Positions 1-60,293 of a stretch of DNA of 64,000 bases are shown here, one piece after another. The notes under the pieces are model-generated. The model was not told the DNA's origin and did no database searches. It saw only the letters and a program-made list of their open reading frames with translations. The stretch spans positions 806,001 through 870,000 of the forward strand of contig JAETXT010000012.1 in NCBI GenBank assembly GCA_019188255.1, in the 5' to 3' direction. A program made the translations under genes and the position numbers. Within the stretch, counting starts at the first letter, position 1. Each line of letters starts with the position of its first letter. The stretch is from Verticillium longisporum. Lineage: Eukaryota > Ascomycota > Sordariomycetes > Glomerellales > Plectosphaerellaceae.

Positions 1-272
1 TGCCATTGTGTCTGTTCCGCCTAGGCACCTTCCGCTACTCTAAGTTGCAGTGAAACTGACATGCTCACGGCGATCAGCGTGCGAAGGATCTTGTTAACAA
101 AGCTATTCTTTTCAAAATAATCGAACTAGCCGCTCCAACGTCTCTAGACTCAGCTTCTAAAGCCTAGAACCCCCACAACGCTGCAAAGTCAAGAAGCTGC
201 TTCCTTCGCTCCATCAGAGAACCCCTCTCCCCCGGCCCCGTCTCCAGTGAGCTACTCGTCTTCGTCATAGCA

Positions 273-803
273 CTAGATGCAAGAACTATACAGACTATCG
301 TCATCATCATCGGAGAAGGCACTTCGGCCTATGGGAATCATGCCCTGTGAATCGCCACTGGACAACGACGATATCTCTGCCGACTCCATCTCCAGCGACT
401 TTCGCATCCACTTTTTGTATTCCGAAAATGCCTTGTTGACGGCGCTAATCACTCTTGCAATTCGTCGGCTCTGTTCCGCATTGTCATGACGTGCGCGGTC
501 CAGCTCTTGGACGAGGTCTTCGATACGATTCTTGTCGGTGCGCTGTGCTGCACGTAACATTGCTACTTCTTGCCTTAGTGTCTCATTGTCTCTTCGTAGC
601 AATTGGGCCTTTTGCGGTGGGTCTTCTTCGAGGCTAAGAATCTCCTCCGCAGGCTCGCTGGACGCGAACGTCACTGGCGGGCGTTTCCACAGCTTGTGCA
701 GGTCGCGCATTCGTCGACTTCGGTCATCCTCCTTGTGCTGTTGCTTCGCCCTAGATGGCAAGGCCGGAAGGCTCTTTTCTGTCACGGATGGCTCGGTACG
801 CAT
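273..803 (-). CDS. Coiled-coil protein, paralogue of the gene at 49,544-49,959
   Basis: Predicted 176 residues. The N-terminus is basic and rich in Ser and Pro; residues about 65-145 form a long charged coiled coil (RDNETLRQEVAMLRA and following heptads), then a conserved block IARVISAVNKAFSEYKKW, and an acidic Ser/Asp C-terminus. The reading frame stays open upstream to 1,130, but I chose the ATG at 803. It matches the start of the paralogue at 49.5 kb (MRTEPS here, MRVDLV there), and the upstream translation is Cys-rich and lacks character. No known domain is recognised. It could dimerise with its paralogue, but that is a guess. The family link is seen directly in the two translations: both carry the IA-VIS-V-F-EY--W pattern. 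Confidence 0.6.
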   Translation of the reverse strand: MRTEPSVTEKSLPALPSRAKQQHKEDDRSRRMRDLHKLWKRPPVTFASSEPAEEILSLEEDPPQKAQLLRRDNETLRQEVAMLRAAQRTDKNRIEDLVQELDRARHDNAEQSRRIARVISAVNKAFSEYKKWMRKSLEMESAEISSLSSGDSQGMIPIGRSAFSDDDDDSLYSSCI

Positions 804-1793
804 GGCCACTGGAAGGAAACTCGCTTTCGAAAGGATACGCGATGTGTGCACTCCGGTCGTGTCTTGGTAACTATCAAGTTTGTTGGTTTTGTACCCGAGG
901 GAGACGATGAGGGCAGAGTGGACACAGTCCTTTTCCGATCTCGGCTTTCGAAATACATCCGTGAACGCCAGGAAACACTGTACAGTACTGTACAGAGCCA
1001 GCGGCATGGGGTAACAATCTTTCCCTGTCCCTCCCCATTCGTATCCGGGTTTCAGCCAGACTGCAGCAAATGTGTAATTTGAAATCGGAGCTGGAATCAA
1101 CATACAACAACTGTGTTGCTGCGCACCCATCAGTGGTCATCAAGCGCGCGCTCTATTCCCACTTTTGGATACTCGCCCAATACATGGGTGACGCTCGTCG
1201 AGCCAACTTATTGGCGTCGAGTAGCTGGAACGCATCCTACATAGTTTATGAGGCTTCCGGTCGGGACTGAGGTCTTTTTTATCGCCCGTGTTAGCACTAG
1301 AACAACGTTTCGCAGGAGGCATGGGCGCCCACTTGCGTTATGCTAGACTGAGAGGGTGTATGCCCTATTTTAATGTAGACAGGCTGCTGCCGAGAGGATG
1401 GGTTCCACGGTCAATTAGAAGCTCAAAGCTATACGGAAAGCCAGTGCCTGCACTACTGTCGTTTGCCGCGTGCTGCTGTTGAACATTGGCGAATAGTCGT
1501 ATTTCACTTTTGAACCCGTCGTACGACAATTTGAATGTCTCTGCTCCTTCTTTTCGGCCGTTTGCCTCTGGCCGGTGACGGATTACTGTACAAGAAAGGC
1601 TTCAAGTCTAACTGTCATGCTCCAAGCGCCCATGTTGTAAAGTAAGAGGGGGCCTTTCGGATCTGAATATTGGGCCCCGCTTGATTAAAGGTTATGGCAA
1701 CTGATTGTCGCGTGGCCATTGCCATGCCACCCTAGTACGCTGCAAAGCGACAAGACTGCTGTGTGTAGTACCGAAGCTCTCAACGTATTTAAC
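804..1793. other. Gene-poor stretch
   Basis: No convincing gene. The open frames here are antisense to the 5' extension of the coiled-coil gene or lack coding character. It probably holds the divergent promoters of the flanking genes. Confidence 0.4.
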
Positions 1794-2282
1794 ATGAATA
1801 GCATGTCGCGCGCCCAAGTGATGGAACTCTTGTTCAACAGTCCGCCAGCCATGGTTTCGGTGACTTGCCAAGTCGTCGACAGCAACGGCAACGCATTATC
1901 TGCCATTTCAGTGACACTTCATTGTCGTGGAGGTGGTTTCCAGACCCCTGTTCGTTTCTCTTCCACTACGGATGATGATGGTTTCGCTTCTGGTTGGCAA
2001 GCCTGTGACGCGATCACGCTGAGCGCCATAGACCCCTGGATGTATCCTTTCGGCCACATTGTCTTCCACACAAATAACCATCATCTTCAACATTTTGGTG
2101 TTGTTGAGGCTAGCATCGCCTTAGAGAGCCAGCCCTGCCACCATGTGTTATTGCGCGCCGACACGCGTCGTCTATCATACTCTATCGAGCAGACTTCGCT
2201 TGCTTACGCAGCAATCGCGTCTCGCCGAAGAGGGAAAGTTTTGGACGCCCCAGACAGCCCTCTGTTGTTACTCTTTGATTGA
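1794..2282 (+). CDS. Diverged transthyretin / 5-hydroxyisourate hydrolase-like protein
   Basis: Predicted 162 residues from the ATG at 1,794; the longer open frame begins at a TTG. Residues 21-75 follow the opening of the HIU hydrolase/transthyretin fold: VTCQVVDSNGNALS, then a strand, then TTDDDGFASGW. This matches the family pattern of TCHVLD..G.PA and TDADGR. Family members degrade hydroxyisourate in purine catabolism. Here the C-terminal signature HYHVPLLLSPYSYTTYRG is only faintly recognisable (HHVLLRADTRRLSYSIEQ) and the central His/Arg positions are not obvious, so activity is doubtful. A structural-only transthyretin fold protein is an alternative. No intron was found. Confidence 0.5.
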   Translation: MNSMSRAQVMELLFNSPPAMVSVTCQVVDSNGNALSAISVTLHCRGGGFQTPVRFSSTTDDDGFASGWQACDAITLSAIDPWMYPFGHIVFHTNNHHLQHFGVVEASIALESQPCHHVLLRADTRRLSYSIEQTSLAYAAIASRRRGKVLDAPDSPLLLLFD

Positions 2283-2733
2283 TTGAGCTAAGCGGAAAGA
2301 CTAGTCGGCTACGAAAGTATGGTGTTCAACGCTGCAAGGTTGAGCGATCAGAGATGAAAGACTTAGTCCATTGTCTCTGAATGACAGCTCGCGAGCCATG
2401 CTGCACGATGTGATGCGGCGCAGTGAAAGTCCTACGTTTGAAACGTCTCAGATCTGAGCTGATTTTGCCAAAAGTATCCCATTGAATTCCAAAGGACAGC
2501 GCTGTGTCAAGCCACGGCGGAGCGCTTTGCACGTCGGACCAGGGGGCACCGGAGACTGTTGATCGTGATGCATTTATTGTTATTAACAATGAGTGGATAG
2601 CGGGTTTACATACGCGGGAACCAACATACAATGAACGCTTCTAGTGTACCCATTCAGAAATGACCCAAATCCATGTTGCTCTCTCGACGAACATCATACT
2701 CCACACTAGACGACGACGGCTTCTGCTGCACCG

Positions 2734-3243
2734 CTAGTCGTCGTCGCTGTGGTTCAACCACGACGCCAGGGGCTGTCTGCGGCCCATAAATTTTGGTACA
2801 GGCCCCACCGCCTCGATATCAGCTACCACGACCGTCATGCATTGTGTACGCCCATCAAGTAGGGGGCCTCTCCACGGCATTCCGTGCGGCGCCGTCGATC
2901 CCTGTATCAGCAAAGTGGACGGAAGCGGCAGCTCTGTGACCGGAGGAAAGTGTCCGTCTCCCAGCATCAAGGCACGAGCTCGTGCGTGGTGCAATGTAGA
3001 CGGCTCTTGTTCCATGTCAGGGCAGCTTGATCGGCCATCGAACAGGCTGTCTTTGGTGCCTCTACCATGGAAGGCTGGGAGAGGTCCGGCTGCGCGTGAA
3101 ACTGTCGACGCGGGTGCCGCGGGTGCCGCATGATAGACAGCTGCTGCAGGGATTCCAAGGATGCCTCGCATAAGGGCACGCCGCGACTTGTAAATCTCAA
3201 GACGGCCATCGTGCCCCGGCATCAGCAGGGTAACGTTGCTCAT
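2734..3243 (-). CDS. Orphan protein with core promoter
   Basis: Predicted 169 residues from the ATG at 3,243. The frame is open much further upstream (to 3,810), but that extension runs through a poly-Phe stretch and across a TATA box, so it is taken as 5' untranslated or upstream DNA. The protein is Ala, Pro, His and Arg rich with no recognised domain, signal peptide or membrane segment. The TATAAAG-type box at 3,472-3,480 lies about 230 bp upstream of the chosen ATG. Function unknown. Confidence 0.5.
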   Translation of the reverse strand: MSNVTLLMPGHDGRLEIYKSRRALMRGILGIPAAAVYHAAPAAPASTVSRAAGPLPAFHGRGTKDSLFDGRSSCPDMEQEPSTLHHARARALMLGDGHFPPVTELPLPSTLLIQGSTAPHGMPWRGPLLDGRTQCMTVVVADIEAVGPVPKFMGRRQPLASWLNHSDDD

Positions 3244-3471
3244 CGTAGCCGAGCGGTGGTGCCGTGGGAGGACGCGAGCAAGGGATGGCGGGTGACCCTC
3301 TGTGGATGACTTATCTCTGAACACCCGTGTCTTGATGGAGAATTCGGATGCTTCAGCACCTGTCAAAAGAAAAACACTGAGGCAGGAGAAGCAGAAGACC
3401 AGACGCGATGAAGGTATCGGACCTAGCGCAGTCTTTGGAATGAAGAAGAAAAAGAAGCGATCGCAGCCAGC

Positions 3472-3480
3472 TTTATATAA
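3472..3480 (-). promoter_or_regulatory. TATA box of the 2,734-3,243 gene
   Basis: TTATATAAAG on the minus strand, about 230 bp upstream of the chosen start codon. A T/C-rich stretch follows, as at fungal transcription starts. Confidence 0.4.
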
Positions 3481-4021
3481 GTAGACGGGCAAACCTACCG
3501 GTGCCTTTGTCCTCTCCTGACTTATTTTTGTCTTTGACCCTATGCACAAGGGTCCGGCGTCGGGAACCCGCATCCAGGACGGCACCCGGCCGTGACCATC
3601 GGTGCAGGCCCCACTTCCATGCTCTTTGATTCGGCCCCGAACCGCACAGGCCGACGTCCAGCAGGGCCCGCCAGTCTGAACCCCGCTTCCGACAACTATT
3701 CTTAGCAGCCGCCGACGCCGCGGCGTCAAAAGCTCGGCGATGATTCCTTCCCTGTCGCTTGCAAGCGTCTGACAATTTTTGTTCACGACAGCCATTGTAC
3801 GGGATGTCATGAGGAGACAGCGCCGTCATCCTCCGTCCTGATGACGTGCGATGTGAGCTGATTCGTGCACGGACCACACACACTTTTCCACAGGCCGCCG
3901 AGGTATATCCGACCCCGCATCGAGAGAACGTTGTTCCGACGGCATTGGAATACGACTAGAGGCCTGCAAAGGCATCACGATCTCCAGGCCGTGCTCTTGA
4001 GGATCGTTGACTGCCCTCGGA

Positions 4022-4337
4022 ATGATGCTTCCACAAAAAGCAGCCCTTCTAGCCATGATTGTACGCTCCACGAGAGGGAATTTCTCATCGCGCACGCACT
4101 AATGTGTTCAAGGACAGCGAAGACCTTAAGCGAGGCCAAGAGTACTCTTGGCGCATAGAGCGAATCAATGTCACAAGCTCTATTATCGTGGAGGTGCTCA
4201 AAGGCGCTGTTCAAATCAGAGACGAAAACAACACGATATGGGAAGCATGGAAGAGCAACAAGACAGAGAGTGGTCAAGCAGTCAAAGGACAATATATAGA
4301 TTTGTACGACGCCACAGTGATTATTCGAAACCTCTAA
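4022..4337 (+). CDS. Possible small secreted protein, two exons
   Basis: Exon 1 4,022-4,060 and exon 2 4,113-4,337. The intron has a GTACGC donor, a CACTAAT branch point and an AAG acceptor, and the phases match. The product is about 87 residues: a short hydrophobic start (MMLPQKAALLAMI), then a beta-rich segment with GQEYSWRIERI and QYIDLYDATVIIRNL. The G-x-x-Y-x-W opening vaguely recalls Kre9/Knh1 type cell-wall domains, but the hydrophobic segment is short for a signal peptide. The gene converges with, and overlaps by 17 bp, the 3' end of the minus-strand gene at 4,321. A chance open frame is possible. Confidence 0.32.
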
Positions 4338-5601
4338 TAAGTATTGGCAAGCAGTATCTTTGAACAATACCCAATCCAGTATACCTGTTCACCTTGATCT
4401 TGAACTCGTAGTCGCCGATGGTATCTATATCCACCGATATACAAGTAGAACATTCCAATCTCAACATGCGCTCGAGGACCCAAGTATCCGACGATAGGAA
4501 TGATGCACGCAACTCTTGAAATATGTAATCCAAGTTACCTGGCAACATACCGATCCCATGAAGAGCCGACCGATGGAGATGCCTGATACTGTGGTTCGTC
4601 GTCTCCCGCAGCCTCTTCGCCAACTGTGCTCTCGAGGAAGGGGGATCACCTTGAGCCATCGCGCGCATCGCTAGCTCACGTCGAAGGTTGTCCGCCGTCG
4701 CCTGTTCAACATCCTCCCTGTATTCGTCATGGTTGGAAGCCACTTGCACCGCTGCATGATTCATCACATCGTCCGGCCCGCTGGTTGCCTTGGGCTGAAG
4801 AAGACTGCCCTGTTGCGTCTGCCTGCACAAGGCATCGGCTCGATTGACGATATCACGCTGGGCGTTCGCAGCATGGTCTTCTCGGTTGTCTTGGTCGTCT
4901 TGGTCTTCTTGAATGCCCTCCGCAGTAGCGATATCTTGTCTAACCTGGATCAGCCTGTCGGACCCTGATGCTCCGGCGTGTGATGTCGCTTGTATCGAGG
5001 TGCTTTGCGACGAGTCATCGTGTCCCTCAACCCTCACTTGATCGAAAGAGGTCTTGTTTGATACTTTGACCATGTCAGCGAGAATTGCGCTGACGTCTCC
5101 TTTCCAAGCGTCAAGAACTACTTCTATGCCGGTGTTAAGAGCAGTGTATGTCATTTACATGATCAAAGCAAGCATACCTAAGAGGCAGAGTCGGGCACAT
5201 CGTGGATCGAGATTTCTGTAGTACGTCATCCAGGTGGCATCAAGTTCGAGGACCTCGTTTCTGTAAAATTCCATCGCACGCCTGAACTGATCTGGGCTAT
5301 TCTCTATGGCCATCCATTCCGAGGGTGTGAAAGACCGAGTCAGATCAACGACTGCAGCGAGAGGTAGCTCCGCTATGCCATCAGTCTGAGCATATCGCAG
5401 CTGGGAAATGTGCCGGGCGAGTCGCTTCGTATGGCTCGGATCGGATGAGCGCCTGTTCTCTTTAATTCGGTGGTTGAGAGCGAATTCGGCTATTGCAGCA
5501 GCATCAGTGCGCTTGTTCTTGGCGATATCAGCAGCCGTGCGACGAATCCTCCGCTGCTTCGACGCGACGTCCGGAGCGCTGTCCTCAAATCGCTCTGTCA
5601 T
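4321..5601 (-). CDS. Orphan two-exon protein with basic N-terminus
   Basis: Exons 5,601-5,178 and 5,123-4,321; the 54-bp intron has a GTATGC donor, CTTAAC branch point and TAG acceptor. The join is in frame and gives 408 residues. The first 70 residues are basic (KQRRIRRTAADIAKNKR) and helical, followed by a block of aromatic helices around residues 90-140 (SPDQFRRAMEFYRNEV). The middle (about 165-270) is Gln/Asp-rich and likely disordered, and the C-terminal 120 residues are mixed alpha/beta. A nuclear role is suggested only by the basic start. No family recognised. Confidence 0.6.
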
Positions 5602-7022
5602 CGTTCTGTCGAGGATGCTGCGTGCAGTGTCATGTAGTGCGTTGGTGTTGGGGTGGAAGTAAGGAAGTGGACCAAAGAGGCCGGGTGGGTGCTCGGCTTT
5701 GACCTCAGAATCCTTGCCCGAATCCTCGCCTAAGAGCAGTCTGCCGATCAGAGAATTCGAGATCGGCCAGCCAGTTGCCCGAGGTTGTGCCTCGGCATAG
5801 GTAGACTATATAGGGGTCACTACTTCTAGCTCCAAGCAGTTACAGAGACACAAGAGTGGACCAGAAACAAACAGCAGACTACGAGCAAAGGGGCATATAA
5901 CGAACGTTGTAGGGCAAGTACAACATACGTGCATATGAAGAGCAAGACACGGAACAGCGTGGTATGTTCAATGACTCGCGACAGGTATCCCCTCAAAGCC
6001 TATAAAACAATTTAACGACCAGATGACATTTCACGTCCAAGTGTGGCAAAACCCTGAGAACTGCTGAGAGAGATAATGTTCAACCCAGGCATGACGTCTG
6101 TACAGGCGCGACCTCATGCACCCATAGTGATGTGAAAATCGTGCAAGCAGCACAGGGAAGCCGAACGGTGTGTGAAATACACCCTAATAACAACGAGACC
6201 TTCAGCCACCACTGAACTACCGCCTTGTACTGTCGATGCTGTGCAGAAGTGTGAGGGGCGATGTTGGGTGGAATTGAGAAAAGCACCAGCAAAAGCACCA
6301 GCACCGTCCTCCCATGTCACGGGGCTGAACAAAGCTTAAATGGAATGTATCGATACGTGATTCGCCGCTTCAGAGTTTGCAAATAGACAAGAATGCGTAC
6401 GAAGAGAGCTCCATTTCACTTCGTGATATCCCTCCTGTCGCCGCCAGCCTTGCTCAAACTTCATCATGGATGATTCCTACTCATCTCAATCATGCCTTGA
6501 CTCTGCACTTCCATCGGCCGTCCAGAACGCGCCTATGAATATATCCTGCAAATCAGCCTATCCCGAGAAGCTGGCTGGTCGGGGATTGCGGGGCCAGGAC
6601 GTGGCGAACAAGGCTAGACACCCCTCGCCTGTAACGCTCTGGTAGTTCCTGCCTCACCACAAGAAGTCATCAGGATGGTCTGAGCACAGAGACTTGAGCT
6701 CAGGGTTATCGTCTGAATCACTTACGCTGAAAAGTTCATGTATTTTGATAAGACGAGCCTGATATCCGATTTGATCAAATCGAGAGCCCGCCTCCTGGCA
6801 CCTCGAAAGTTGATGAATAAGGAACGCCCTTCACGATTTCCGTCCCATTATATTGCTGAGAAATATTCGAAGAGGTGTCAATGTTCTCTCCCCTACCGCC
6901 TAATTGATACGGTGCTGAAGCTTGGTTTGCGCCGGCCTCGACGCTCGGTGGTGTGCTGTGTGAGAGCACCCCTTGTTGCGGAGGCCGCACAATGTTGACG
7001 CTTGACTGCGGAGCACGCAAGT
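5602..7022. other. Gene-poor stretch
   Basis: No gene with supported splice sites or domains. A frame at 6,775-7,020 (minus), Gly/Pro/Gln-rich, lies directly downstream of the zinc-finger gene and could be its last exon if the TAG at 7,023 is a splice acceptor. No good donor was found. Confidence 0.35.
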
Positions 7023-7796
7023 CTAGATGGTTGGGCCAGCTCTGTTCATAAAATCCGTTCGGATATGGCAGCGGACGATTGGCCCCAGCGTTTGCTGGCC
7101 TGGTTGGGGAGGCTGACGCGACCAGGAGAGAGCTTCAGGAGTAGCAGGATGGGAGGCCGTCGAAATGGCGAGGCGAGCTTCAATTCTCGATATCATAACT
7201 TTGATCTCCTTGAAACCTTTGTTTTGGTTGGCTATAGCCAATTTGAACTGTTCTTGTAGCGACGTACAGGTCGCTTGAGCTTGCTTCATACCAGCATCCT
7301 GGTAGTTGATCTGTTCTTCAGTCTTCTTGAGTCTGGCCTTGATTCTCTTCATTCGCTTTGCAACGCTTTTGGGCCTAGATCGAGACTCTGCGATTGTCCC
7401 CGATTTCGCAGTCACCTCTGGCTCTCTGCGTTGATGCGAGCTTGGCTGTGCTTCGTCGATAGCCTGTTGAGAATGGGGAGGCGGATTACCCGACTGTTGC
7501 TTCTTTAGAGATTGTTAGAATTGCTATGGACGTTAAAGACTCACCAAAAGCTTTTCAGGGAGGTCGCTTGAAAGCATGATCAGGCCCTGATGGCAGGACC
7601 TTTCACGAGTCCAGTGGGCTCTCAAGCTAGACTTCTTTACATACGACTTGCCGCATCCGGCCTGGGTACCAGGTGCAAACGCATCACTCATGCAGACATA
7701 GACCGTTTCCCCTTTGTGGTATCGGCAGTGCGTTTCCAATTGCTTCTGACCTCTTGCGGTCTCCGGAAAGCTGCGTTGGCACTTCGAACAAGACAT
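7023..7796 (-). CDS. C2H2 zinc-finger and coiled-coil protein
   Basis: Exons 7,796-7,545 and 7,502-7,023; the intron of 42 bp has a GTGAGT donor, CTAAC branch point and AAG acceptor. A CAG nine bases further in is an in-frame alternative. Product about 243 residues. The N-terminus has two Cys/His fingers (CSKCQRSF with HCRYH, then a CGKSY finger ending in a His/Cys pair), likely nucleic-acid binding. Residues about 125-200 form a coiled coil rich in Lys, Glu and Gln. The finger style resembles the fingers at the C-terminus of the captain (54.7 kb) and of the transcription factor at 17.4 kb. Function unknown; a nuclear role is inferred. Confidence 0.6.
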
Positions 7797-8347
7797 GGTA
7801 AAAGGTTGGCGAAATGCGGTGCGATGGAGGCAAGGTCATCAGCCCTGGTGACTGAGAGACAGGCTAGCTTAAAAGACTACAACTAATGCTCTAGGGTCCA
7901 CTGGCCTTTGTGTCTTTTATACGCTGCTGCCCAGACGTGGGTGCGCACCGGGTCGACCGAGGGCCCAGGGCTGTCACTTGTATGACCTGAGACTGGGCTG
8001 TGTGCCTGCTCTGTCGCCGGGACACCATGCCAATTTGGTGGCGGATTCACCGCGACAGCACAGACCAGCGTACAGGAATATCCCGGGCTACGCGTCGGGC
8101 GGCACGAGCAGACTGGTCATTTTCATGGGTGGTGGAGCGCTGAGCCAGGGCATCAGCGGGAAGGGGGTGTGATACGTCGTTTTGCGAGATAAACCTCACG
8201 GATCATACCGGTGTTCGGAGAAGGAGGGTAACCTCAGCAACTCAGTTCATGGAATTGCATTATGCATGAGCGGAATCGAGATGATGGACGGTGCTTGAGG
8301 AGGAAAACTTCACGTTCGAGTCGCCTGATCGATAATGCCGTCCGACC

Positions 8348-9252
8348 TTACTCCCCAGCTTTAAAGACCATCCACAAGTCCTTCCCGTCTGCCCAGAAGC
8401 CTTTCCAGAAGTGTTGGAGAGTCTTCGTCCCAGAGCGTGCAACGGCGATACACTGCAAATGACGGTAGACACCAAGAACACGGCCTGCTATGTCAGCAAA
8501 TGCGTGACCCAGGAACCAAGAGGAGTAAATGCCCACCAAGTGGAAGTCCTCGTTGGGGACCAGAAGAGCAAGCCAGATAGAACAAGAGAATAGGAGCATG
8601 AGGACCATGTAACAGGCCAAGAGAACGGTTTGCCTTCTCATTTGACGTGGCTTCCAGTTCAAAGTCACGACTTGGCGAAAGATGTACCATCGATGAAAAA
8701 GTTCAGCGCCAGTCCCTTGGCCCAATTGATCGGATTTAAGAGAGTCAAGGAAAGAGTCGAAAGCGCAAAGCACGGCTGAGGTTGCGGCGAGTGTCAGGAG
8801 AGCGAGTGTCGAGTACTGGGCAGCTTGATGTGGTCGGACATGCACACCGGTGGTGACCACGAGACCAGAGTATACCGGGCTGATGAACGCCAAACACCAG
8901 AGCCAGCTCTCTGAATTGACGAGACGATGCCACAACAGCCTCTTCAGGATGTCAGTCAGCTACTGATGTCCGCGAGAAGGGGCCGACTCACTTCTCCTGC
9001 AAAGTTCCAGCCTGTGCCGAGAAGCAAGACAACCGGCTTGTCGATGTTCAAGAGAAACAAAACGACGGAAGCTACAAGATGGAGCATCTCGATCGCAAAG
9101 ATTCTGATGTTGAACCTTTTGCCCTTCATCGAGGCCCGGGGCTCTTTCGGCTTCCTCCAGGAGGGTACAGCGAAGGCCGCATGCTTGGCACTCCGACTAG
9201 CAAGTGTAACGGACATGAGCGTTATGGCGATGGTGTCTTGTCGTACTGCCAT
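8348..9252 (-). CDS. Multi-pass membrane protein
   Basis: Exons 9,252-8,992 and 8,941-8,348; the 50-bp intron has a GTGAGT donor, CTGAC branch point and AAG acceptor, joined in frame. 284 residues with about five or six hydrophobic segments: around residues 50-68 (LHLVASVVLFLLNI), 97-112, 126-145, 180-202 and 213-235. No catalytic motif or transporter signature was recognised. The spacing and the aromatic loops resemble uncharacterised fungal integral membrane proteins. Cellular location and role unknown. Confidence 0.65.
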
Positions 9253-10938
9253 GATATTCGCGCTGAGGACATGCGTAATAGGGTGGACGAACCCTGTATA
9301 GCGTAATGGGGGTGCTGACTTCTTTTACTAGCAGGCAAGTGCACGTGGACCGTGGACCATGGGAAAGTCTGACGGCTGACGGCTTTTCGGACTCGAAATT
9401 ATAAAGAATCCAGCGCTCATTAGGTTTAGGCTCAAATGTACATACTCATAATGCTGTTTCCTTCGAGCACACGCAAGATGGCGAATGATCAGGGGCAGAG
9501 GGCAAGGACATACGGCTTCAAGGGGACTCCGGGGAAGAACGCAGTGCGTGTTGTATGCGTCCGCTTGTCTTGACAAGGGCATTAAATCAGGACTCTTGGG
9601 AGTGTGTGCCGGAATTCAAAAGGTCGATTTGGATGTCGAGACAGCTTGACGTTGCAACCCGAGGCCGACACGGGCGACGCGCACCGACTTCGAACCCCGC
9701 CTCGTCTGGATGAACTTGCAGCCCCAGTCGCCGTAGTACTTGCGCCTGTCAAAAATCAGGTACTTGGACCAACTACGATAGCAGATCACCCCCCAAACAT
9801 AAGCTTTTCAGCAGCGTCAACTTAGAGACGGTACGGGGCGTAAGGTGTTGACAAGTACTATGTATACCAGTTGAGTCGTTGCTCGGAGACCCACCCTGCT
9901 GTTGTGCAGGGCCAGCGGATTCCTGAATCCCTGAAGCGATGTACAACCTTTTGATCGGCCGGCAGTCAACTTTCCACGGTTTTGGAGCTTTCCTGTGGGT
10001 GTTGTAAGCGCAATTCTTACACCCGGTACGGGGCGTAAGGTGAAATAAGTACGCTGTGCAGCTTGGTCAGATCCCAGCTTCGGCGTCTGGGTGTGTGTGG
10101 GTCCGTTCAGGAGGCTGATGGCTTGGAAAACGAGCGGCGCCATCTGGCTGGCGTTGGCGCCGGGCCGTGCCAAGGATGGCGCGGTCGTTGGATTGCCACA
10201 ACATCGGTCGAATGTGGAATTCGATAAGGTGTCTTTCGCATTGCAGTGTCACCATTCGAAACCGATATTATACGGTTCTGGACGGATTGCGACTCTCCAG
10301 AATCAGCGATGTAGGAGGCCAGCCGCGCCGCTCCAATGACCAAGCAGGTGACCCGACCCACCATCATGTGCCCGGGCTGCTGACTCCAGCGTGGCAACTG
10401 ACCCGACCAACTTTTACGCATCGGCCGCGAGCAATTGGTCTAGCCAGTTTCGTCAATTCTCTGGAGGAATTCTCTCTATACTCGTACATTCGTACATTCG
10501 TTCCTGGTGTGCTGTCCGACTAATTTAGGGAAACACTGCCCAGTCCCACGTTGTGCATGCATGTCCATCGTCTGAGATAATCTACTGTCCTGAAGGCTGC
10601 AGAAGCTGGTAAGCCAGCAAAAACACCTAAACATAGGCTAGCAGACAGAAACTAGCGACGTAGTCGATCACTCCCTCTGCGCTACACCATTCTCAAGAAT
10701 GGCCATGGCCCTCAACGTACAGTGGTGGCTCGTCTCTGCCCTGTTCAGAGCGCCTCAGGTCCATGCAAGGGCTCTGTAACAGGAAGCTACAACCCAAGCC
10801 CCCTCTCTTGTCCACACCCTTGTTCACGACAAGTCTCCTCCCATTGCCCGAGCTCTTGCCACTTGCAGTCGGACTACATACCAAGCATTTCCCACGAAGA
10901 CGTAGCGAGTAGTGCCACTTTTGCTCACTCCTTCCTGG
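9253..10938. other. Gene-free stretch with an 18-bp direct repeat
   Basis: No gene supported. The only structure seen is a perfect 18-bp direct repeat (9,830-9,847 and 10,025-10,042). Confidence 0.4.
9830..10042. repeat. 18-bp direct repeat bounding a 213-bp unit
   Basis: GGTACGGGGCGTAAGGTG occurs at 9,830-9,847 and again at 10,025-10,042. The second copy lies in an imperfect palindrome (CTTAC...GTAAG). Nothing coding lies between; this could be a relic of a small insertion or a duplicated site. Confidence 0.5.
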
Positions 10939-46281: not shown

Positions 46282-46287
46282 TATAAA
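46282..46287 (+). promoter_or_regulatory. TATA box
   Basis: TATAAA about 90 bp upstream of the ATG at 46,377. Confidence 0.55.
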
Positions 46288-46376
46288 CCCACGCAGCTCC
46301 ATCCAGGTTTCCTCTCAACATAACATTTTCAGACACAACTTGCCTCCTCTGGTTCCATTCACTACAGACAATCGAT

Positions 46377-49122: not shown

Positions 49123-49258
49123 GTCGAAAGGCAAGAGGCTGGATCAGGTGCGCGATAGCGCAGAAACATGGATGGACGGCAGAGTTTCGCTTTTTATGCA
49201 GGCCGGCACCGGCCGGATCACAGCTGTCCTGACAATTCTGTCTCCAATACCTGTTTCC

Positions 49259-49492: not shown

Positions 49493-49543
49493 GATCTTTC
49501 TTTTGTACTGAGATCCCTCCCGACTTACTTTCCCATCCTCACC

Positions 49544-50723: not shown

Positions 50724-51776
50724 ATGGAAGGGATGCCCTATGAGATCATCCGCGAGTTCGTCTCGTATCTAGACTCGCGAAGCCTTCTCAATTTGGCACT
50801 GACTTCCAGTCACTTCAACCATGCCTGCTTGTCCGAGGCTTCGCGTCACCTCTGCGTACTCAACACCCTTTCGGCACTGTCGGGTCTGGCGCACCACATC
50901 AAACAAACAAGTCCGCTCACACGAGCTCTCACGGTGTATCATGGCGAGTGGCCGAAGTGCGACTACAAAGCGTGGCAGCTTCACCCGCTCCAGGTGTACG
51001 AAGCGCACCCTTTTGTGTCGCAATCTCCGTCGAAGAAGGAAAAAGCTTTACAGGCCTTCCCACGCTATCGTCACTTCGTAGCGGACGAGGGGTCTAGAAG
51101 TCGCCATGGGGACATCCGTCGACTGAACCAGATTTTGAGTTCTCTGCCACAGCTCGAGCGGATCACAATCTCCCATGCCTGTTCCCATGCGCGGAAACCG
51201 AAGAAAAACGTCCAACTCACCCGACTGTGCCAACAGATCTGGCTATCCCCGTGCCGGAGAAACGCAGTCGATCGACTCGCGAGTGATATTCTGACAGTGC
51301 TTCCTAACTACGCCCGCATCCAGGACGTGAAGATTGAAGGCACACTGAACCTTGAGTCCATCGCCCCTCTGCACGCGGCGCTGGGTTCCGTGACCAAGCT
51401 CGACATCCAATCGATGAACATGGCAAACACTACTCCTGCAATGTTCCAGTCCTTCTTTTCCTTGTTTCCCGCTTTGCAAGACCTCCAAATGAATTTTTGC
51501 CGCCACAATGGACTGACCGTCATCCCTCTCGATCACTTGGACTGTCCCAACCTTCGCTCAGTATATCTTGCCAACGTACGTGCGGCAGTCCTTGCGTTAG
51601 TGCGGTTCATGCAACGACACCCCGTCATGGAATGGCTACAACTCGACGATCCAGCGCTGGTGGACGGCCACAGTGTTTTGGGCTACCCACGCAGCTGGTT
51701 GTTCGGCATCAACTCCAGATTAACACTACGGATAACGGGCACTGACACAGCTCCCTGTGGTCCTCTCAGCTTCTAA
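50724..51776 (+). CDS. F-box protein with leucine-rich C-terminus
   Basis: Intronless, 350 residues. The F-box is at the very start (GMPYEIIREFVSYLDSRSLL, then LALTSSHFNHACLSE), the Skp1-binding motif. The rest holds irregular Leu-rich repeats (LPQLERITISHA, FPALQDLQMNFC, LDCPNLRSVYLANV, HPVMEWLQLDDPAL), as in the large fungal F-box families that select SCF ubiquitin-ligase substrates. No lesion seen. Substrate unknown. It is the second F-box gene in the window, and unlike the ankyrin one it is intact. Confidence 0.75.
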   Translation: MEGMPYEIIREFVSYLDSRSLLNLALTSSHFNHACLSEASRHLCVLNTLSALSGLAHHIKQTSPLTRALTVYHGEWPKCDYKAWQLHPLQVYEAHPFVSQSPSKKEKALQAFPRYRHFVADEGSRSRHGDIRRLNQILSSLPQLERITISHACSHARKPKKNVQLTRLCQQIWLSPCRRNAVDRLASDILTVLPNYARIQDVKIEGTLNLESIAPLHAALGSVTKLDIQSMNMANTTPAMFQSFFSLFPALQDLQMNFCRHNGLTVIPLDHLDCPNLRSVYLANVRAAVLALVRFMQRHPVMEWLQLDDPALVDGHSVLGYPRSWLFGINSRLTLRITGTDTAPCGPLSF

Positions 51777-52279
51777 GTGGGTATGCCGGGCACGAGTCCT
51801 GCCAGAGCGTTGGGGATAAGCATAGTGAAGAGGTCTTCCGCAAGTGGTATCCACAGTCAATTGTTAGGCAGGGGATAGGACTACATCTATAAAAATTCTG
51901 GCCCTCCGCAGCCCTTATATATGCGCTTTCGCAGTCCCTCCCCCTAACCAGCCCCCTGTTCGGTGGCTCCATACGTGCCTCCTGACAAGCCACATGCAGA
52001 TGCACGGCAGGCCGGCGAGATGTTGGTAGAACCAAGACAACTTTCGGCTGATGATCAATCGTAAGGATATGCCCGAAGGCTAAGAGCTATGATAAAGACA
52101 GCCGAGAGTGAGGCTTGAGTAGGGAGCGTGCAGATGTGAAACTGACCGGTCGGAAAGTCTCCTGACAATATAAGATAAAGGAAGAGTGTGTGCAAACAAA
52201 CGAGCTCGTACATTAAATCCAAAACAAGTACACCATTGCAAACCATCTACCGCACCCGAATCAGACTTGATGGGGCTGC

Positions 52280-53040
52280 TTACATGGTGCGGTTTGGAGC
52301 CTCGCCGAAACAAACAGCTTTCTGCTTCGCCCATTCCTCCGCGCCAAATTTAGACACAATGGCCTCTTCGCAAATCTCCATTGCTCTTGGACCAACTACA
52401 TCACTAAGTGGTATTTCTGTAGGAGCCCAGATCGCCAAGCAAGTCATGGATCCGTCTGGCTGCCGAGTGAACCCCTGAAAGTCTTCTACCTCAAAATCCT
52501 GGCGATTACTGAGCTTGGCAGCCTTTGTGATGTTGGTTCTCTTCGGCTTCGGCTCGAACGATGATTCTCTGGCGCGTTTTTGGGACGAGATTGGGTAGTG
52601 CCCGGCTTCGACCGTGACAACGCTGGTGGGGAAAACTTGTCACTACGGACCCTTCTCCATCGTTGCGTTATGAGGCTTCATGGGGCGTCACTTACGTGCT
52701 TTTTTGGTTTGGAAGAAGCCGGTAGATCAGCTTGGAGAGTTGCGTCACCGAGAGTGGCTACGGTCTTGCCACTTTCGAGCAGGCCACATGGGAGCGTGGC
52801 AGGCGTCGCCACGTTGGGTGTCAGCCTGCTGGCTTTTGGACTGGTCGTCGTTTGCCCCGCTTCCTTGGCGAACAAGACCGCTTGACCGACTGGACGATGG
52901 TCATGGTCGGGGTCGTCTGAAGACTGCACGGAAGTAACTTTGACGGATCCGATGTGTGGTTGCACAACTTGCTTCTCCGTTGCGGTAGTTGTTGGGTTAG
53001 GGACTGCAGGCCTCTCGCCTGGAGAGTGCAAGTGTTCCAA
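52280..53040 (-). CDS. Orphan two-exon protein with a small chromatin-domain-like C-terminus
   Basis: A first frame (53,040 down to a GTAAGT donor at about 52,691) is Thr/Pro/Ser-rich. After an AAG acceptor near 52,634 a second frame runs to a TAA at 52,280: a basic stretch (KRARESSFEPKPKR), then FEVEDFQGFTRQPDGSMTCL and a helical end (RAMEICEEAIVSKFGAEEW). This last part faintly resembles chromo or chromo-shadow domains (W/F, DG turn, final helix), but the match is weak. Phases at the intron differ by one base and the first ATG is not resolved, so start and splice are provisional. The second frame has no early ATG and must be an internal exon. Confidence 0.42.
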
Positions 53041-53048
53041 AGGCTCAT

Positions 53049-54008
53049 GGCGTGTATTCTGGTCGTTGCACAGGGTGAGTGGAAGGAGGAGCTGTGCTGA
53101 GAAGATGATGAATTGTGTAAAGTGGAAGGGAAGCCTTTGTATTTATGGACAAAATTCTGCGATGAGTAAGCCATGCTTCCCTCAGTTTGTCCCTCAGCTA
53201 GTCGTGGCCGTCACGTCACTGTTCTCATCGACTCACGAGCAAGGGAGAACGACGGCAGGCCCCTAGCGCCTCGGGTAGTGATGGTCAGAGGCACGAATAT
53301 GGTGCTTCGAGTGACGTTGGAGCTGGCCTACTCTGGATGCCAAGACCAGTCTGCGAGGAGTTCCAGAGGGCCTCGTGAAGAGTCAACTGCGACCAAGCAC
53401 AATGTTGGTAAACACATATCTGTGTAAGAGTCATTCACGTGCCACAGAGCTCGTGGCCCAGGTTTGAGATCTTTATTACTGAGGTATACTCTGTGAAGCA
53501 CCCAACACATCCTATAATCCCAAGTTCCAACGACAACCATCGGATAAATACGAGCCTTTGAAGGATATCGGAAGCCAGCATGCAGAGCGGCCCCGACGAT
53601 AGCCCATTTGCGATGGCACTGGTTTCAACTCAAAACTCGTAGTAACAGGGATCAAAGAAGAACAGAGAGCCTGGCATATCTTGAACGAGTGGTAAGGCAG
53701 ATCCTCCAGCACCGTGCCCGCCATGGAAGACCAGTCAACCCGACTCCCGCATAGTTGTCGGCAGCGGTGACAGTGGACCTCGACTGCACGTCATACCTCA
53801 GCATCCTTTGAGGAGGCAAGATACGAGGGGGGTCCCTTGCTGTGTGCGAGTTCTCTTGTTCCTCTTGTCGCATGCCTCCGACGTCGCAGTTCTGCAATTC
53901 GATGGACTTATCGGTCTGGTCCTCACCCGATTGCCCGGCCCGCCATACAAACTGCCTCTGTCGAACGATTGGCGGCATTCGCCTGCAATTCCTACGATTG
54001 CTTGATGC
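53049..54008. other. Gene-poor stretch
   Basis: Several overlapping open frames on both strands, none with a domain or convincing splice sites. Confidence 0.35.
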
Positions 54009-54438
54009 TCATTGATCAGCGACATGAGTATCAAACCCGTCTGACAACGCGGAATCTACCACGTCATGCTTGTCGTTGTGAACCTGTGGCAAGGTGGAGA
54101 ACATGCTGGGTATGAATATCTCCGGAAGCGGGTAGATTCGAAGCTACGAGCAGTCAGTCAGGCACGACCTGTTTCGGAAGCATCTCGTCTTACGATCTCG
54201 TCCTTTGTAGGCGGAAATGACGCTTGATCCGGCTCGCTCGTAAAGACCCATGTGCGGCGATTGTATTCGATGAAGGTGTACACCTTGGCTTGACAATCTT
54301 GCGACAGATCATGCGCCCTGCGCAAGAACGTCTTGCGGCGCTTGGAAAACTTGGTGGCTGCACGCTTCCGACTTTTGCGGATCTCCTCTGGGTCGTACGG
54401 CTTCAGGGGAGCGGAGTTATCTGCTGACGTTTCGACAT
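54009..54438 (-). CDS. Second MADS-box-like gene, two exons, next to the captain
   Basis: Exon 1 from about 54,438 to 54,194 and exon 2 54,143-54,009; the 50-bp intron has a GTAAGA donor, CTGACTGAC and a TAG acceptor. The coding frame reads KPYDPEEIRKSRKRAATKF, then SKRRKTFLRRAHDLSQDC and AKVYTFIEYNRRTWVF. This is the basic arm, KRRKT helix and following strand of an SRF-type MADS domain. The only nearby ATG (54,438) is one base out of frame with it, so either a base is missing just after the start or an upstream exon is unseen. Exon 2 adds a short tail ending in Asp/Ala residues. Small (about 125 residues), essentially a bare DNA-binding and dimerisation domain. Confidence 0.6.
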
Positions 54439-54713
54439 GTTGTCAAAGCGAACGCGACTGCAACTTCGTAGGGCGGCTTATTCGCCGTGCAAAAACTGTT
54501 ACTCCTTTCGCAGACATCCCACTTTGTATTATATCTTACACATAAATACAGAGGGCGGACCTCATTGCCTGTTGCCGGAAGTCATTTTGCGTGAGGGGAG
54601 CCAAGCGCGGGATCCCGCTTCGTGTTCGGTTTTTAAGCGCCCGCATGTTGTTCGATTTCAAATTCGGCAAACAGGTACCACAGATGGTGTCTTTTGCAAT
54701 AGCGCCATTGGGA

Positions 54714-57452
54714 CTACACCCGTATGCTCTTCTTCCCCATACCCATCCCGCCCAGCCCAGCTGCCTCAGGCTCTTCATCAGACTTCCTGTTCCCTGTCTG
54801 GCCCTTGTAACCATGCACTTCCCAAGTGTGTTCGCGCCAGCACTCAATCCCTTCGATCCAAACTTCTACCCCCGCGTTTTTGCATTCCGGGCAGGGAAAA
54901 GGCTCATCGAAGAGGCCTTGATGCAGGTGCGCCGAGTTCATATGCCTTGAAAACCCATTGCCGGCAGCGAACTGTCCCTGGCAAAGCTTGCATTCCGCCT
55001 TTCGGGGTGATCTGATGCGGCGAGATCGCCCTGAGCTGGCCGGCGACGATTTCTGAGGGCGATATGGTGCGTTGCGTTTCCCGTGGTATCTCGTAGCATG
55101 GATGATCCATTCGGACAGCCCATTGATGATGATTTCTTTCTTATCTTGCGACAAGCATTCGGGGCAGTGGAACGGTGTTGAAAATGTGTCTCTATGAATG
55201 CTTGCCACGTGTCTGTTCAGAGCATATCTGCTGCTCAGTGGTTTACAACCGAACAGACACCGATATTCAGTAGCCATGTTGACTCCTATGTGTCCTTTCT
55301 CCACTGGCAATGGCGGCTCAATCGTCGGCGGCTGCAAGAAAAGCTGCTTGTCTGCCTCTTTATCGATGCCATGACTCGTGAGTATTGTAGTCGCAGTGCT
55401 TTCGAGGTGCTCGACCTCCGAGAATCTGTTAGAGAGGAAAGCGACAAGGAGGTCAATGTATTTTGTCGTGGCCAGCATGTCGATTCCCGAACATCGTACC
55501 ATGTAGCGGCTGATAATCGTCGCGGCTGCTGAACTGACAGTATGGCGTCCGGCTTTCGGACGCGTCGTTCTGCTGACGAGGTGCTCTGTTGAACGTCCCT
55601 GGCCCCTTAACTTGTCGGCCTCAAGAAAGTATTCCTCACGACGTTGCATGACTTGGAGTTTCGACAGTGTTGCCACAACATGGCCACGCCGAGATGCAAT
55701 CCTCTGTGCGTTCTCTTTGTCAGCTGCCGTTGTACGTGGGATCTCGGCAAGTTGCTTGTCGAGCTCTTGTATATCCCTCCGCTGATTCCACTTTGCGTAA
55801 TCCTCTGGATGCGGGTCTATAGGCGCGTTATCATCACGTGTGAGTAGGGACTGTCGAAGAAATTCGAAAAGAAGCTCATTGTCTCCCGCAACAGTAGAAA
55901 AGGCGATAGCAGCCAGGTTCTCTTTTGTATGAACTGGCTGATAGCTCTTTCGGAACACAGCCTCCGTATTCGAGATGATGTGACTACGTACTGCGGACGT
56001 CAAGGATCCTGAATGTGTTCAGCTTGACCTTCTTGGTGGTCATTGTAGGGCGCTGCATGTCTTACCATCCACTCGTCCAGCCGCGCCTACGCGCAAGGAG
56101 TAGGGGCGATCCATTCTTCGGCAGCCTAGCACGAGCAGAGTGCGCTGCCATATTTGATGGTACTTTTGGGGCGATATCTCGAATATGGGGCGTTCCAGCA
56201 TGGATTTATCCCACGGCAGTGGTATAAGATGTTGTCCTTGCAGATTTGGTACCGACAGCATCTCGAGAGCGGAGCCATACTTTCCGCTGAATGCTTTATC
56301 CTTGAGAGCCTTGCTGATGATCAAGCTTGAGAGGTCGGTAAGAAGGCAAGGCATGGACGTCACACTAAATGACAGTCTGGCAAAATCACAAGTCAGCAAG
56401 ATACAAGTGCCATTTCTGAACAGAGCGGCCTGACTTGTGGTCTTGACTATTCATCACCTTGTTGTGTTGCTGTTTGTTGTGCAACACAGTGGGCGTAGCT
56501 ACCAGTCGTGGGTGAGCTTTGCGGGAAGGATCCTGCACCAGATCCAGTCTGACTTGGCTATACAGAAAGCGCGTCAATGTCCCCTGACGAAAGCCTCCGA
56601 TGGCCATCATCAGAACCACAAAGTGGAAGGCAACGCGTTCAGATGCGGTGCAGGGGATATCGTCTGCCCGTCGCCACAATGTCGTCAAAATCAACAAGAC
56701 ATCTTTCTCGGTCATCTCCACCTTCTCGAATGTTTGGTCGCGTTGTAATCCCAGCGAGTCTGTCAGTCCCTCTCGGATCCACTAGCGAACTCTGACCTCA
56801 GCAAGTGTGGCATAAAGCGCTGCGGACGGCACCTCGGCGACTCACCAGACTGATTTTGGACACTGGTCCTGTGCAACGCTCTGACACCGACAGCGTCCAG
56901 TGCGCCGACTCCTTTGGGTGACTTCTCCGTTTAGCCTGTAGAACGTGATCGTCGGCATGCCTTACCAAGCCCTTCCAAACTTCCAATATCGTCTTGGTGC
57001 AAGTCACAGTCCTCGCAAGCTCATACTCTTCCGGTCCCAGACTGACCCGTTTCTCCAATGAGTTGACGACATAATCTTGAAGAAAGGCCTGGCAGTATCC
57101 TATTGATTCGGGGTTTCGTCACAGAGCCGAAGCCAGATGTCATCCGGGTCCAAGCCTAGCACATTGCGGAAAAAGCTGCAGATTGGCTCAGCATTCACTC
57201 ATGGTCTTCGGAGCACTCAAGGCGAACTTACTTTTGCCACTTTTGATACGAGCTCTGCCTTTGCTTCCTCGTGACGTTAGTGACTGATGCCCTGTCGGCG
57301 ATCGGCTCTGCCTGGAACTGGGCTAAGGCTTCACGGGCTTTTCGCTGTCGCTCCCGACTCATCGAGAGATGGGACAGTGGTTCGACGCGAACGGCAGTCG
57401 CCCCAGGTGCCATCGCGGGCGGGTGGGGCTCTGGAGGGAAGACAGAAGACAT
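54714..57452 (-). CDS. DUF3435 tyrosine recombinase (Starship captain), with zinc fingers and one frame break
   Basis: Exons 57,452-57,232, 57,175-56,846, 56,781-56,435, 56,376-56,066 and 56,008-54,714, all GT-AG. Family landmarks in order: the N-terminal KWQN/FFRNVLGLDPDD segment, YCQAFLQDYVVNSLEKRVSL, TILEVWKGLVRHAD, the catalytic-Arg region IGGFRQGTLT (about residue 250), ATPTVLHNKQQ, YSLRVGAAGRVDGSLTSA (second Arg region, about 395) and EAVFRKSYQPVHTKENLA with the candidate nucleophile Tyr. The C-terminal third has Cys/His fingers (YRCLFGCKPL..., CKLCQGQF...). Near 57,101 a TAG appears and the frame moves by one; one added base gives exactly 834 residues. These enzymes excise and insert Starships. 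If the lesion is real, the captain is inactive. Confidence 0.82.
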
Positions 57453-60293
57453 GGTGCGGTCGCAGTGTGCCAAAGGCAAGGGTAGGAGGGGGATTGCGCG
57501 TTCGGATGGCTCAAAGTTTGCCGGAAAATGAGCATGCAGGAGGTCCAGAAGAGCGCCTGTGAGACAGGCACAAGAAGAGAGGTCTGAGATGAATGTCTAA
57601 CAGGGTGCCGGATGCCGGATGCCAGGAATGAAATGATGAACAGAGCTTGGCCGGTGGAGCAAGACAGGGAGGATGCTATTGTGAAGACAAGACGAATGGT
57701 CGGTGGCACGAGACGGGCAGTGTATTACAGTCTGTGAACGACGGGGGCGACATGCTAGTTGCGCCTGAGGCCTGACGCCTCATGCCCTTGCCTTACACAT
57801 GAAAGCCATGCTAGCTTATCACCAGGCTGGCTTGCATGGTATTCGTCAGTTGCAGTAGGGGTGGGCATGGTTCGAGTGTGCACGTCGGCGCTCTTACTGC
57901 GCTGAACGAGACGTTTCGACCTGTAAGGCGGCGAGCTTGAGCCGCACCGTGCACCCTTCCGCCACGTCGCCTACAAAATGCATGGCGCCCTGACAGTGCG
58001 GCTACTCCTTTGGACACTGCTGATCAAGGTGGTGTCCAATGACGGGCCATCAAGATAGACGTCACAAAGCCAGGTACGTGGCCGCTTTAAAGCACGTGAA
58101 GCCCACTCGCAGATCCGCCGGATCCTCTAGGCGCGAGTTCGCATGCGAAAGTTCGATTGAGACCACCTAAATGCGCGCTACGCTCCTGTCACGATGTCGC
58201 GTCCGGCATATCACAAGAGGCATGTCCTACTGAACCAAGCATTGGTTGGCCGTATGAACGACAGCGCACCTTCGACCTCGAAGCCGAGCAGGATGACTCT
58301 TCACAACGAACGGGCGATCGTAGCCAACCAAATGCGAGACTTTCGGTCGCCTTATCATCACGCAGTCTAAGAAAAGGCGGATCTCCTTGAATGTCATGAC
58401 GGAAGCGACTGGCATGCGGAGTTAACCCTGTATACCATGATCTTGATTCCACCGAGAACGAGAGGCTGGCCGTGCGGGTCCACGCTCCCATTGGACCCTG
58501 ACTGTATGGCTCAAGGTCATGCTCCTGCCTCCGTCGCAAAATCGCACCCCAGTTCATCAGCGTGGGTGAGAGCTTCAAGAGCCACTTCTACTCCTTGACC
58601 CGCGGTTTGGTGATGAAACACTCAATGAGTCACTCGTGATTAGCCTGGCTCCGGATATTCTTGGAGCCCGTAGCCCAGTTCCTCTTGGGTCGTGCACAGG
58701 TGCGTCACAACTCGGGGATCGTTCTCGTCATGTTGGACTCCTCCTCGTCGTTCAGTTATCTGCTAGCGGACCTCAGCAATGCTGCTCGCTGTAGTGGGCT
58801 GAAGATATGTGTGAGAGACTAGAATAACATCTGCGCTCAAGGCAAGTGGCGCATGGTTGGATTCATTCATCCTGGCGGCAGGACTCCAGTAGTCAACCCA
58901 GATAAACAACATTGAGTTCTTGCTGACTAGTACGAAAAGCGTCCGCCCAAATTTTCCGTAGATGGCAGTGACTAGAGAATAGCCCAGTGGTGTGGGAGGT
59001 CAGTTTCTTACAGTATTTACCATTGAGACTCTTGCCTAAGTGAAGTGAGACACGACCACTATGCATTAACAGTATATTTGAGGTTTTACTGAGTTGTCGT
59101 GCCCATTGCATACGTCGGAGATGAAGGCGTTTTACTGTTTCTGTTCCCCCTCCTTATGCACAAGACATTGCAAATTTCTTGCTACGAAAGGATTGATGAT
59201 CGCTCTGATCCTAGATGTTTTGCATATAACAACCTCTCATGAGGTGACAAAGCACATTGTGATTTGTCAGGGTGGGGTGGGTTACACATCATTTGATATG
59301 GAGACGGTGTTTAAACGGTGGTGTTTAATGCTGAAACGGTATGGCTACGGTTCCTACATGGCCCTTCTAAGCCAGTATGCAAGATATGGTATGTATGCAT
59401 AATACCGTACATGCAATATGCTTCGTTCCCCACCTACTTGTGCAAAAAATCGAAAGCACCACCATTGTTAGACATCTTCAACTTCGCAAAACACGGTAAT
59501 CATATTGTTGGACTGAAAGGTACGTTCTTCCAGCACAGCGAGCGCTTGATAAACTTCTTAACCCTTAATGGAACTGTAACTGGATTCTTTAGTGCGCATT
59601 GCCAGTGGCCTAAGCTGGCGACTCAAAGCCTGCCCTCGAAAGCCTGCCCTCGAAAGCCTGGCTTTGCTGCAGTTTTATTAGTCAGCCCTCGCGGCTTGGC
59701 CTACACGAATGAACGCACACTTCTAGGCTTATCACGTGACCTTTTCCCATCCTAGGCCGACTCGACCATCGTCGGAGCAGATCTCAGCCGTTCAGTGTCA
59801 CTTTATGGAGCGGACAGATGAGCCCTCATCTGCTTATTTCAAACATTCTTCCTTATCAGCAGCCATAGCAACCTTGAAAATCTGACCCGGTGAATGACTT
59901 TATCTCTTTTTATCATGGCAGCACAAGATTTTGATATGTGAAAGATCACGTGATTCTCTATCCTTTTCTTCACCATGCAAAATAAGGTGGTCAAAAGCGT
60001 GACTTCAATGGCTAGTTTGGGGTCGAGGCGAATTCCTAAATTGAACGGGGGGTTTATTGACGAGGCGGGGGTTCAAAAAGTCTCAAGGATATTGAGCATG
60101 GCATTCAAAGCGGCGGGCTCCCCCCATTGCCGCTGGGATTTTCGCACACGATCATTGGATGTCATCAGTATCAGCCGTGCCGAAAGTCAAAACACACACT
60201 GTACCCGGCCGCAGGTTCATGACCCTTCTACCATGCTTGGAAGAAAAGTTTGCCATATTTGGAGGACATTTCTCCGAACCATGATCCATATAA
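57453..60293. other. Gene-free captain-side terminus of the element
   Basis: Between the captain start and the 5S fragment no gene is supported. From about 58.8 kb the DNA becomes more AT-rich. A 14-bp tandem repeat lies at 59,625-59,660. Regulatory sequence of the captain and the terminal recognition sequence should lie here. Confidence 0.45.
59625..59660. repeat. Tandem 14-bp units
   Basis: AAAGCCTGCCCTCG twice in a row, followed by a partial third copy. Confidence 0.6.

Follow-up and report, generated by a model that had tools for sequence, protein, structure and literature searches.

The region analyzed here, hereafter the window, is a 64,000-nucleotide stretch of Verticillium longisporum DNA (C4:806,001-870,000, C4 being one of the 16 contigs of a 72-Mb genome), which carries genes for a DUF3435 protein, a DUF3723 protein, a ferric reductase and several further domain-bearing proteins and, toward its right end, contains one half of a split 5S rRNA gene. 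Together with the DNA to its left on the same contig, these features delineate an element that is near certainly a Starship. The features are the following, in window coordinates unless a contig is named, with captain denoting the DUF3435 gene near each end:

1..60290, no strand: right-hand part (60.3 kb) of the element, as delimited by edges and repeats
1..26137, no strand: part of the middle segment that the arms enclose
10939..13606, minus: three adjoining frames with a RING-like cysteine cluster; candidate patatin gene, unsupported
22168..22773, minus: DUF3723 gene, one exon seen (PF12520, E 2.2e-17)
26138..58734, minus: right inverted arm, pairing with C4:734,923-764,894, which bears the left captain
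30359..32425, minus: ankyrin-repeat protein, with an ankyrin counterpart in the left arm
43737..45091, plus: ferric reductase gene, exons partly modelled (PF01794, E 7.1e-8)
46287..47963, plus: protein with two BRCT domains, with a BRCT counterpart in the left arm
50622..51776, plus: F-box protein, cargo
54714..57452, minus: right captain, a DUF3435 tyrosine-recombinase-type gene of five exons (57232-57452, 56846-57175, 56435-56781, 56066-56376 and 54714-56008)
58865..60290, no strand: right-end-specific sequence, which does not align to the left end
60270..60278, minus: right terminal inverted repeat TTCTCCGAA, 9 bp, 12 bp inside the right edge
60291..60297, plus: right-hand TAAGGGC of the 7-bp direct repeat, its left-hand counterpart being at C4:733,377-733,383
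60291..60353, plus: 3' half of the 5S rRNA gene that the element splits (the 5' half lies at C4:733,315-733,383)
C4:733,394-733,402: left terminal inverted repeat TTCGGAGAA, 9 bp, 10 bp inside the left edge

The element measures 132,907 bp (C4:733,384-866,290), with its left edge 72.6 kb leftward of window position 1 and its right edge at position 60,290. The original prediction had set the right edge at 60,293, which is correct to 3 bp, and had anticipated a left edge with matching direct repeats beyond position 1; this was found at C4:733,384, with TAAGGGC as the repeat. The two 5S halves and their TAAGGGC copies sit 133 kb apart on C4, and the flanks, when joined with one copy of TAAGGGC, give a gapless alignment of 124 nt with an intact 5S gene, at 95.2% identity. 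Intact 5S genes elsewhere in the genome are confirmed by Rfam; the 3' half in the window, taken by itself, scores below the Rfam threshold. As TAAGGGC alone is frequent (12 occurrences in 174 kb, on both strands), its evidential weight lies in its pairing with the 5S halves. The terminal inverted repeats are placed asymmetrically, 10 bp inside the left end versus 12 bp inside the right. A search of the same 174 kb for the repeat plus the inverted repeat, permitting one mismatch in each, returned four matches, namely the two element ends and two overlapping matches in the left flank at C4 709.7 kb. The outermost 1.4-1.5 kb at each edge is specific to that end, and the left and right end sequences show no alignment to each other at E-values up to 1e-3.

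We then compared the locus with C3, the likely homeolog of C4. Matches to the RNA polymerase large subunits comprise three pairs on different contigs and one single gene, and by this count the genome looks doubled; V. longisporum is termed amphidiploid in a title that PMC12289983 cites. On the left, C4:727,171-731,337 matches C3:445,000-440,845 with order kept, and on the right C4:866,226-874,472 matches C3:433,435-425,003 in the same order, in a block that contains gaps; the final 2 kb of the C4 left flank has no C3 match. These flanks are spaced by 7.4 kb on C3 versus 135 kb on C4, such that the 133-kb element is absent from the C3 site, a difference seen within one genome rather than between strains. 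A region that is syntenic and fixed throughout, which the original prediction had named as the observation that would speak against a Starship, is hence not what is found, since the C3 flanks are colinear without the 133 kb. The C3 interval holds approximately 4 kb of AT-rich, RIP-like DNA (GC 0.23-0.37) and also keeps 61 bp of a right end next to a decayed 5S half. On account of this AT-rich relic we rejected C3 as a clean empty site: it is a site that was used before or once occupied by an older relative. A tRNA-like gene of unclear anticodon in the right flank (window 60,993-61,080) is conserved on C3, beside a tRNA-Thr gene.

The edges, the direct repeats, the restored 5S gene and the absence from C3 together uphold the Starship reading. 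The contrary proposal, that no transposon is involved and that such genes lie by chance in a segmental duplication or a lineage-specific region, could draw on the doubled look of the genome and on the repeated blocks that C4 holds; it is nonetheless at odds with the base-exact split of the 5S gene, with the direct and terminal repeats and with the recurrence of these ends in 5S genes on C7, C11 and C13. The 5S gene restored by joining the flanks speaks strongly against it, and we regard it as extremely improbable.

The DUF3435 gene had been predicted at the right of the window and lies there on the minus strand. Its start codon is 2,838 bp from the edge, it is transcribed inward and, judging from the listed reading frames, it would be the first gene at that edge. 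The five exons are separated by four GT-AG introns, the third of which (58 nt) was taken from a V. dahliae gene model. Comparison with the DUF3435 profile gave a divided answer: the pieces of the window captain matched PF11917 with E-values of 8.6e-5 and 0.016, the best scoring 22.1 bits against a cut-off of 25.8, and in a DUF3435 scan of the whole genome, with all 39 candidates scored, no hit fell within the window, whereas the close V. dahliae relative P0001 passes the cut-off (4.2e-11, 42.9 bits). As the window pieces stay below the cut-off, the DUF3435 assignment rests on P0001.

With the sibling copy on C11 as query, 12 of the 7,994 database proteins scored were hits. V. dahliae supplies relatives with 94% and 88% identity over nearly the whole length and two further partial ones; the matches from V. 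alfalfae and V. longisporum span partial lengths, and those from Gaeumannomyces, Colletotrichum and other fungi are 34-38% identical. Since two captain proteins come from one V. dahliae assembly, there is a hint that the pair exists in that species too. GGFR, YSLR and SYQ-type residues are common to the relatives, and the conserved R, K and Y residues are putatively catalytic, as would befit a tyrosine recombinase. A structure model of mean pLDDT 58 led in a fold search to FLP, XerH and Cre, with a best E-value, on this poor model, of 0.04, so that the fold assignment is tentative.

A genome-wide inventory (36 of 36 candidates scored) recovered five captain copies, 92-100% identical as judged by the longest exon, together with four relics (C4:318 kb, C1:5,536 kb, C13:789 kb and C13:815 kb) in which this exon contains 6 to 30 stops, two distant relatives (C13:1,344 kb and C4:74 kb) and small fragments. 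In the right captain a one-base length difference puts exon 2 onward out of frame, which may be an assembly error in a homopolymer run, and the copy at C11:5,020 kb shares this loss of frame. A single in-frame stop interrupts the left captain, and the copies at C11:5,220 kb and C4:346 kb are open, giving open frames in two of the five copies compared. Across 832 of 835 codons, dN/dS is 0.22-0.35 in all ten pairs of these five copies, a pattern which points to purifying selection between captains of the left and right types. Directly downstream of the right captain lies a small frame with a near-cut-off SRF/MADS match (window 54,158-54,442), which is present in all five aligned copies. A third DUF3435 gene occurs with equal scores at C4:6,225, C4:379,931 and C4:770,671, in two of these three places about 35 kb inside a left-type captain; the copy within the element occupies C4:770.0-772.1 kb.

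The original prediction had further named three hallmark cargo families. Two of these, DUF3723 and ferric reductase, are borne out by the profile matches given above, a second frame of the latter gene matching PF08030 below cut-off, while the patatin-like gene found no support in profile, motif, genome-wide or pairwise checks. The three frames of the candidate, which was chosen here because the original prediction came with no coordinates, gave no Pfam patatin match at E 0.01, and one of them, together with its V. dahliae relative, gave none at E 10, only a sub-threshold RING match. A genome-wide search with PF01734 produced 25 hits, none of them in C4:733-866 kb, a patatin motif scan found no GGGxRG, and the candidate's sole hit among 7,997 scored proteins was an unnamed V. 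dahliae protein. We accordingly rejected the patatin identity of 10,939-13,606 as unsupported; a much decayed relative is possible.

Cargo domains were sought in selected open frames, 50 in the window and 21 outside it. BRCT-domain frames number five in the window and two in the left arm, with one just below cut-off in the middle segment, so that one element holds at least seven, those of the window within 16,026-47,963; both database relatives found for the frame at 46,380-47,963 are from Verticillium. The remaining cargo includes cyclin-like proteins, a Fic domain, an OTT_1508 deaminase-like gene and a Zn-cluster gene, and a simple scan for NACHT-type P-loop patterns gave no match. The middle segment also contains a Copia-type retrotransposon (C4:794,611-800,135) whose flanking repeats of 226 bp are identical and which is probably, by that token, a recent insertion.

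DNA searches with window 1-43 kb give lower bounds, as they miss near copies such as C11:5,208,806. Within that limit, window 1-20,000 matches a relative on C13 at 64-75% and two short stretches of C4, and parts of 20-43 kb match C13:1,349-1,356 kb, mostly at 85-88%, and C11 at 4.49 and 4.69 Mb, at 96-98%. The latter concern window 40,084-43,397, a stretch of the right arm just left of the ferric reductase gene, which recurs at C11:4,694,017 and C11:4,489,358 with 96-98% identity, closer than the arms are to each other. Within C13:1,344-1,356 kb, DNA that matches window 23.6-29.2 kb, for the most part at 85-88% identity, adjoins a distant relative of the captain (32-47%), and this is perhaps another Starship that shares cargo with the C4 element.

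Comparison of the element with itself revealed a reverse match of C4:734,923-764,894 with C4:864,734-832,138, that is, two inverted arms of 30 and 33 kb flanking a middle of about 67 kb. Their identity per block is 73-87%, the long blocks being at 80-87% and the short ones at 73-80%. The alignment, which includes the unlike ends, counts 2,861 transitions and 1,757 transversions, with the directions of the transitions in balance; because of this balance we rejected RIP as the source of the divergence. Each arm has one captain, placed about 2.8-2.9 kb from its edge and pointing inward; the left one lies outside the window, beyond the view of the original prediction. We favor the view, with good though not full confidence, that the element is a single two-captain unit, its captains lying in inverted arms near the two ends. 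On the other side, the layout as a unit is shown once, with no other two-captain element traced end to end, a diverged relative on C13 has its arms in tandem rather than inverted, and both captains of the C4 copy are damaged.

The ends of the element recur elsewhere in the genome. Left-end sequence lies at a minimum of seven listed places, C4:733 kb included, and right-end sequence at a minimum of five, the C3 relic included, both counts being lower bounds. At six of the seven left-end places the match continues into a 5S 5' half, and at the seventh, C4:335,184, it abuts a right end; the junctions read at four of them (C4, C7, C11 and C13) are identical but for single letters, and two of the other places are on C2. 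The right end is joined to a 5S 3' half on C4, C7 and C3, lies 806 bp from one on C11 and stands against a left end at C4:335,165. Both end types enclose a 15.9-kb RIP-like relic at C7:1,393,386-1,409,313, between the halves of one 5S gene, each end beside the same half as on C4; by eye from translations it contains a retrotransposon-like block, and it gave no captain hit. Their pairing on C7 indicates that left and right ends belong to one element type. Taken together, the junctions read so far suggest that the polarity of the element is set by the 5S gene, the left end appearing to face the 5' half and the right end the 3' half.

Several of these places are of interest in their own right. 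The right-against-left arrangement at C4:335,165-335,184 is as expected of serial insertion in one 5S gene. At C11:5,226,062-5,226,875 the approximately 806 bp between right end and 5S 3' half have TAAGGG on both sides and are possibly the remnant of a second insertion. C13:783,106-897,759 is a diverged relative of the whole element (62-77%), in which a left end is followed by two stop-ridden captain arms in tandem, a middle in the same orientation and scraps of an inverted arm.

The distribution of captains relative to these ends bears on a simpler account, that of an ordinary one-captain Starship into the far end of which the captain-bearing segment was copied in inverted orientation, the second captain being passive cargo. 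Its appeal is that, in the accessible text of PMC12153272 and PMC12257634, the captain is the first gene and marks the 5' end, and that the arms, which differ by 13-20% in long blocks, begin 1.4-1.5 kb from each edge. A captain is, however, found near the left end at four of the seven listed places (C4:733, C4:335, C11:5,028 and C13:783 kb) and near the right end at three of five (C4:866, C11:5,226 and C4:335 kb), with other DNA separating two of these captains from their ends, by 10 kb at C4:335-346 kb and by 14 kb at C4:321-335 kb. The near-end relics, by longest exon, retain 48% protein identity on the left (C13) and 66% on the right (C4:318 kb), and the presence of such diverged relics at both end types implies that the layout is old and not a single accident. 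The purifying selection between left-type and right-type captains likewise tells against a passive second copy. This account thus stays a minority possibility.

Less probable still is a pair of Starships, tail to tail or nested, in the same 5S gene. Each arm does resemble the captain end of an element of its own, successive insertions into a single 5S site seem to occur (C4:335,165; C11:5,226,062), and PMC12289983, in the sections available, reads multiple recombinase genes as nested Starships. Against this, the 174-kb search found no further end with TAAGGG and the inverted repeat inside the element, which leaves no nested Starship with recognizable ends of its own, though decayed ends could escape such a search. 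The outer ends moreover form a matched, unlike pair, also around the C7 relic, whereas a tail-to-tail arrangement would be expected to show two like ends, each turned toward a different half of the 5S gene. We consider this reading unlikely.

Returning to the single unit with two captains, the copy at C11:5,020 kb is informative, as it sits at a left end, yet is of the right type: in coding sequence it shares 98.9-99.0% identity with the two right-end captains, compared with 95.8% for the left captain. The type of a captain is hence not tied to the type of end at which it stands, and exchange between the arms would give just such a right-type captain at a left end. The DUF3435 tyrosine recombinase is predicted to move the element. 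We infer that the captain would bind both ends and excise the element as a circle closed at TAAGGGC, which could then insert at the same site of another 5S gene; either captain would act on both ends, and the inverted arms might recombine with each other and thereby move captains from one end to the other. The element may be a self-inverting Starship, whose arms flip the middle and trade captains, such that either captain moves the ship and it survives damage to one; this is a tentative proposal, which we hold to be possible rather than probable. As both of its own captains are damaged, the C4 copy is predicted to now need a captain from a sister copy.

The locus thereby offers a bounded, base-level case for the captains on both strands noted in a Verticillium survey, points to a simple rule by which the 5S gene would set the orientation of insertion and makes it testable whether such elements flip, swap captains and move by either captain. 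No description of paired inverted captain arms was found in the literature searched, a set outside which most subscription papers and all bioRxiv preprints lie.

The C4 element resembles the Starship superfamily in its inward-pointing, tyrosine-recombinase-type captain near the edge, its short direct repeats, its asymmetric inverted repeats, its size in a range of tens to hundreds of kb and its DUF3723 and ferric reductase cargo. It differs in having a second, related captain near the other end, also pointing inward, in an inverted arm of about 30 kb. The available text of PMC12153272 counts a 5'-end captain among the traits common to all Starships, and that of PMC12257634 and PMC12134995 describes the captain as first gene, direct repeats, asymmetric inverted repeats and a preference for 5S genes. 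Sato et al. 2025 (PMC12289983), in the portions available, report Verticillium Starships that have recombinase genes at the 5' ends of both strands, their orientation being given as undetermined, and mention such both-strand captains in a legend and in the methods. Those Starships are, by captain identity, from the same genus as the C4 element, the difference being that the available portions contain no account of inverted arms, of unlike ends that form a pair or of a junction with a 5S gene; the words 'rRNA', 'inverted' and 'target site' are absent from the main text. Within the superfamily, the likeness of the C4 element to the Enterprise family rests on insertion into 5S rDNA, and its captain is predicted to fall in the Enterprise clade. 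Voyager is a member of this family. Osiris, according to the accessible part of PMC12153272, is another member that targets 5S rDNA. Both resemble the C4 element in their 5S rRNA gene target and in a direct repeat of more than 6 bp (PMC12153272, in the same part), and differ from it in that the available accounts of them make no mention of a captain at both ends. The Voyager site, reported in the available text of PMC10128009 as AGAATACAGGGC, lines up, with one gap, with the ...AATAAGGGC of the C4 element.
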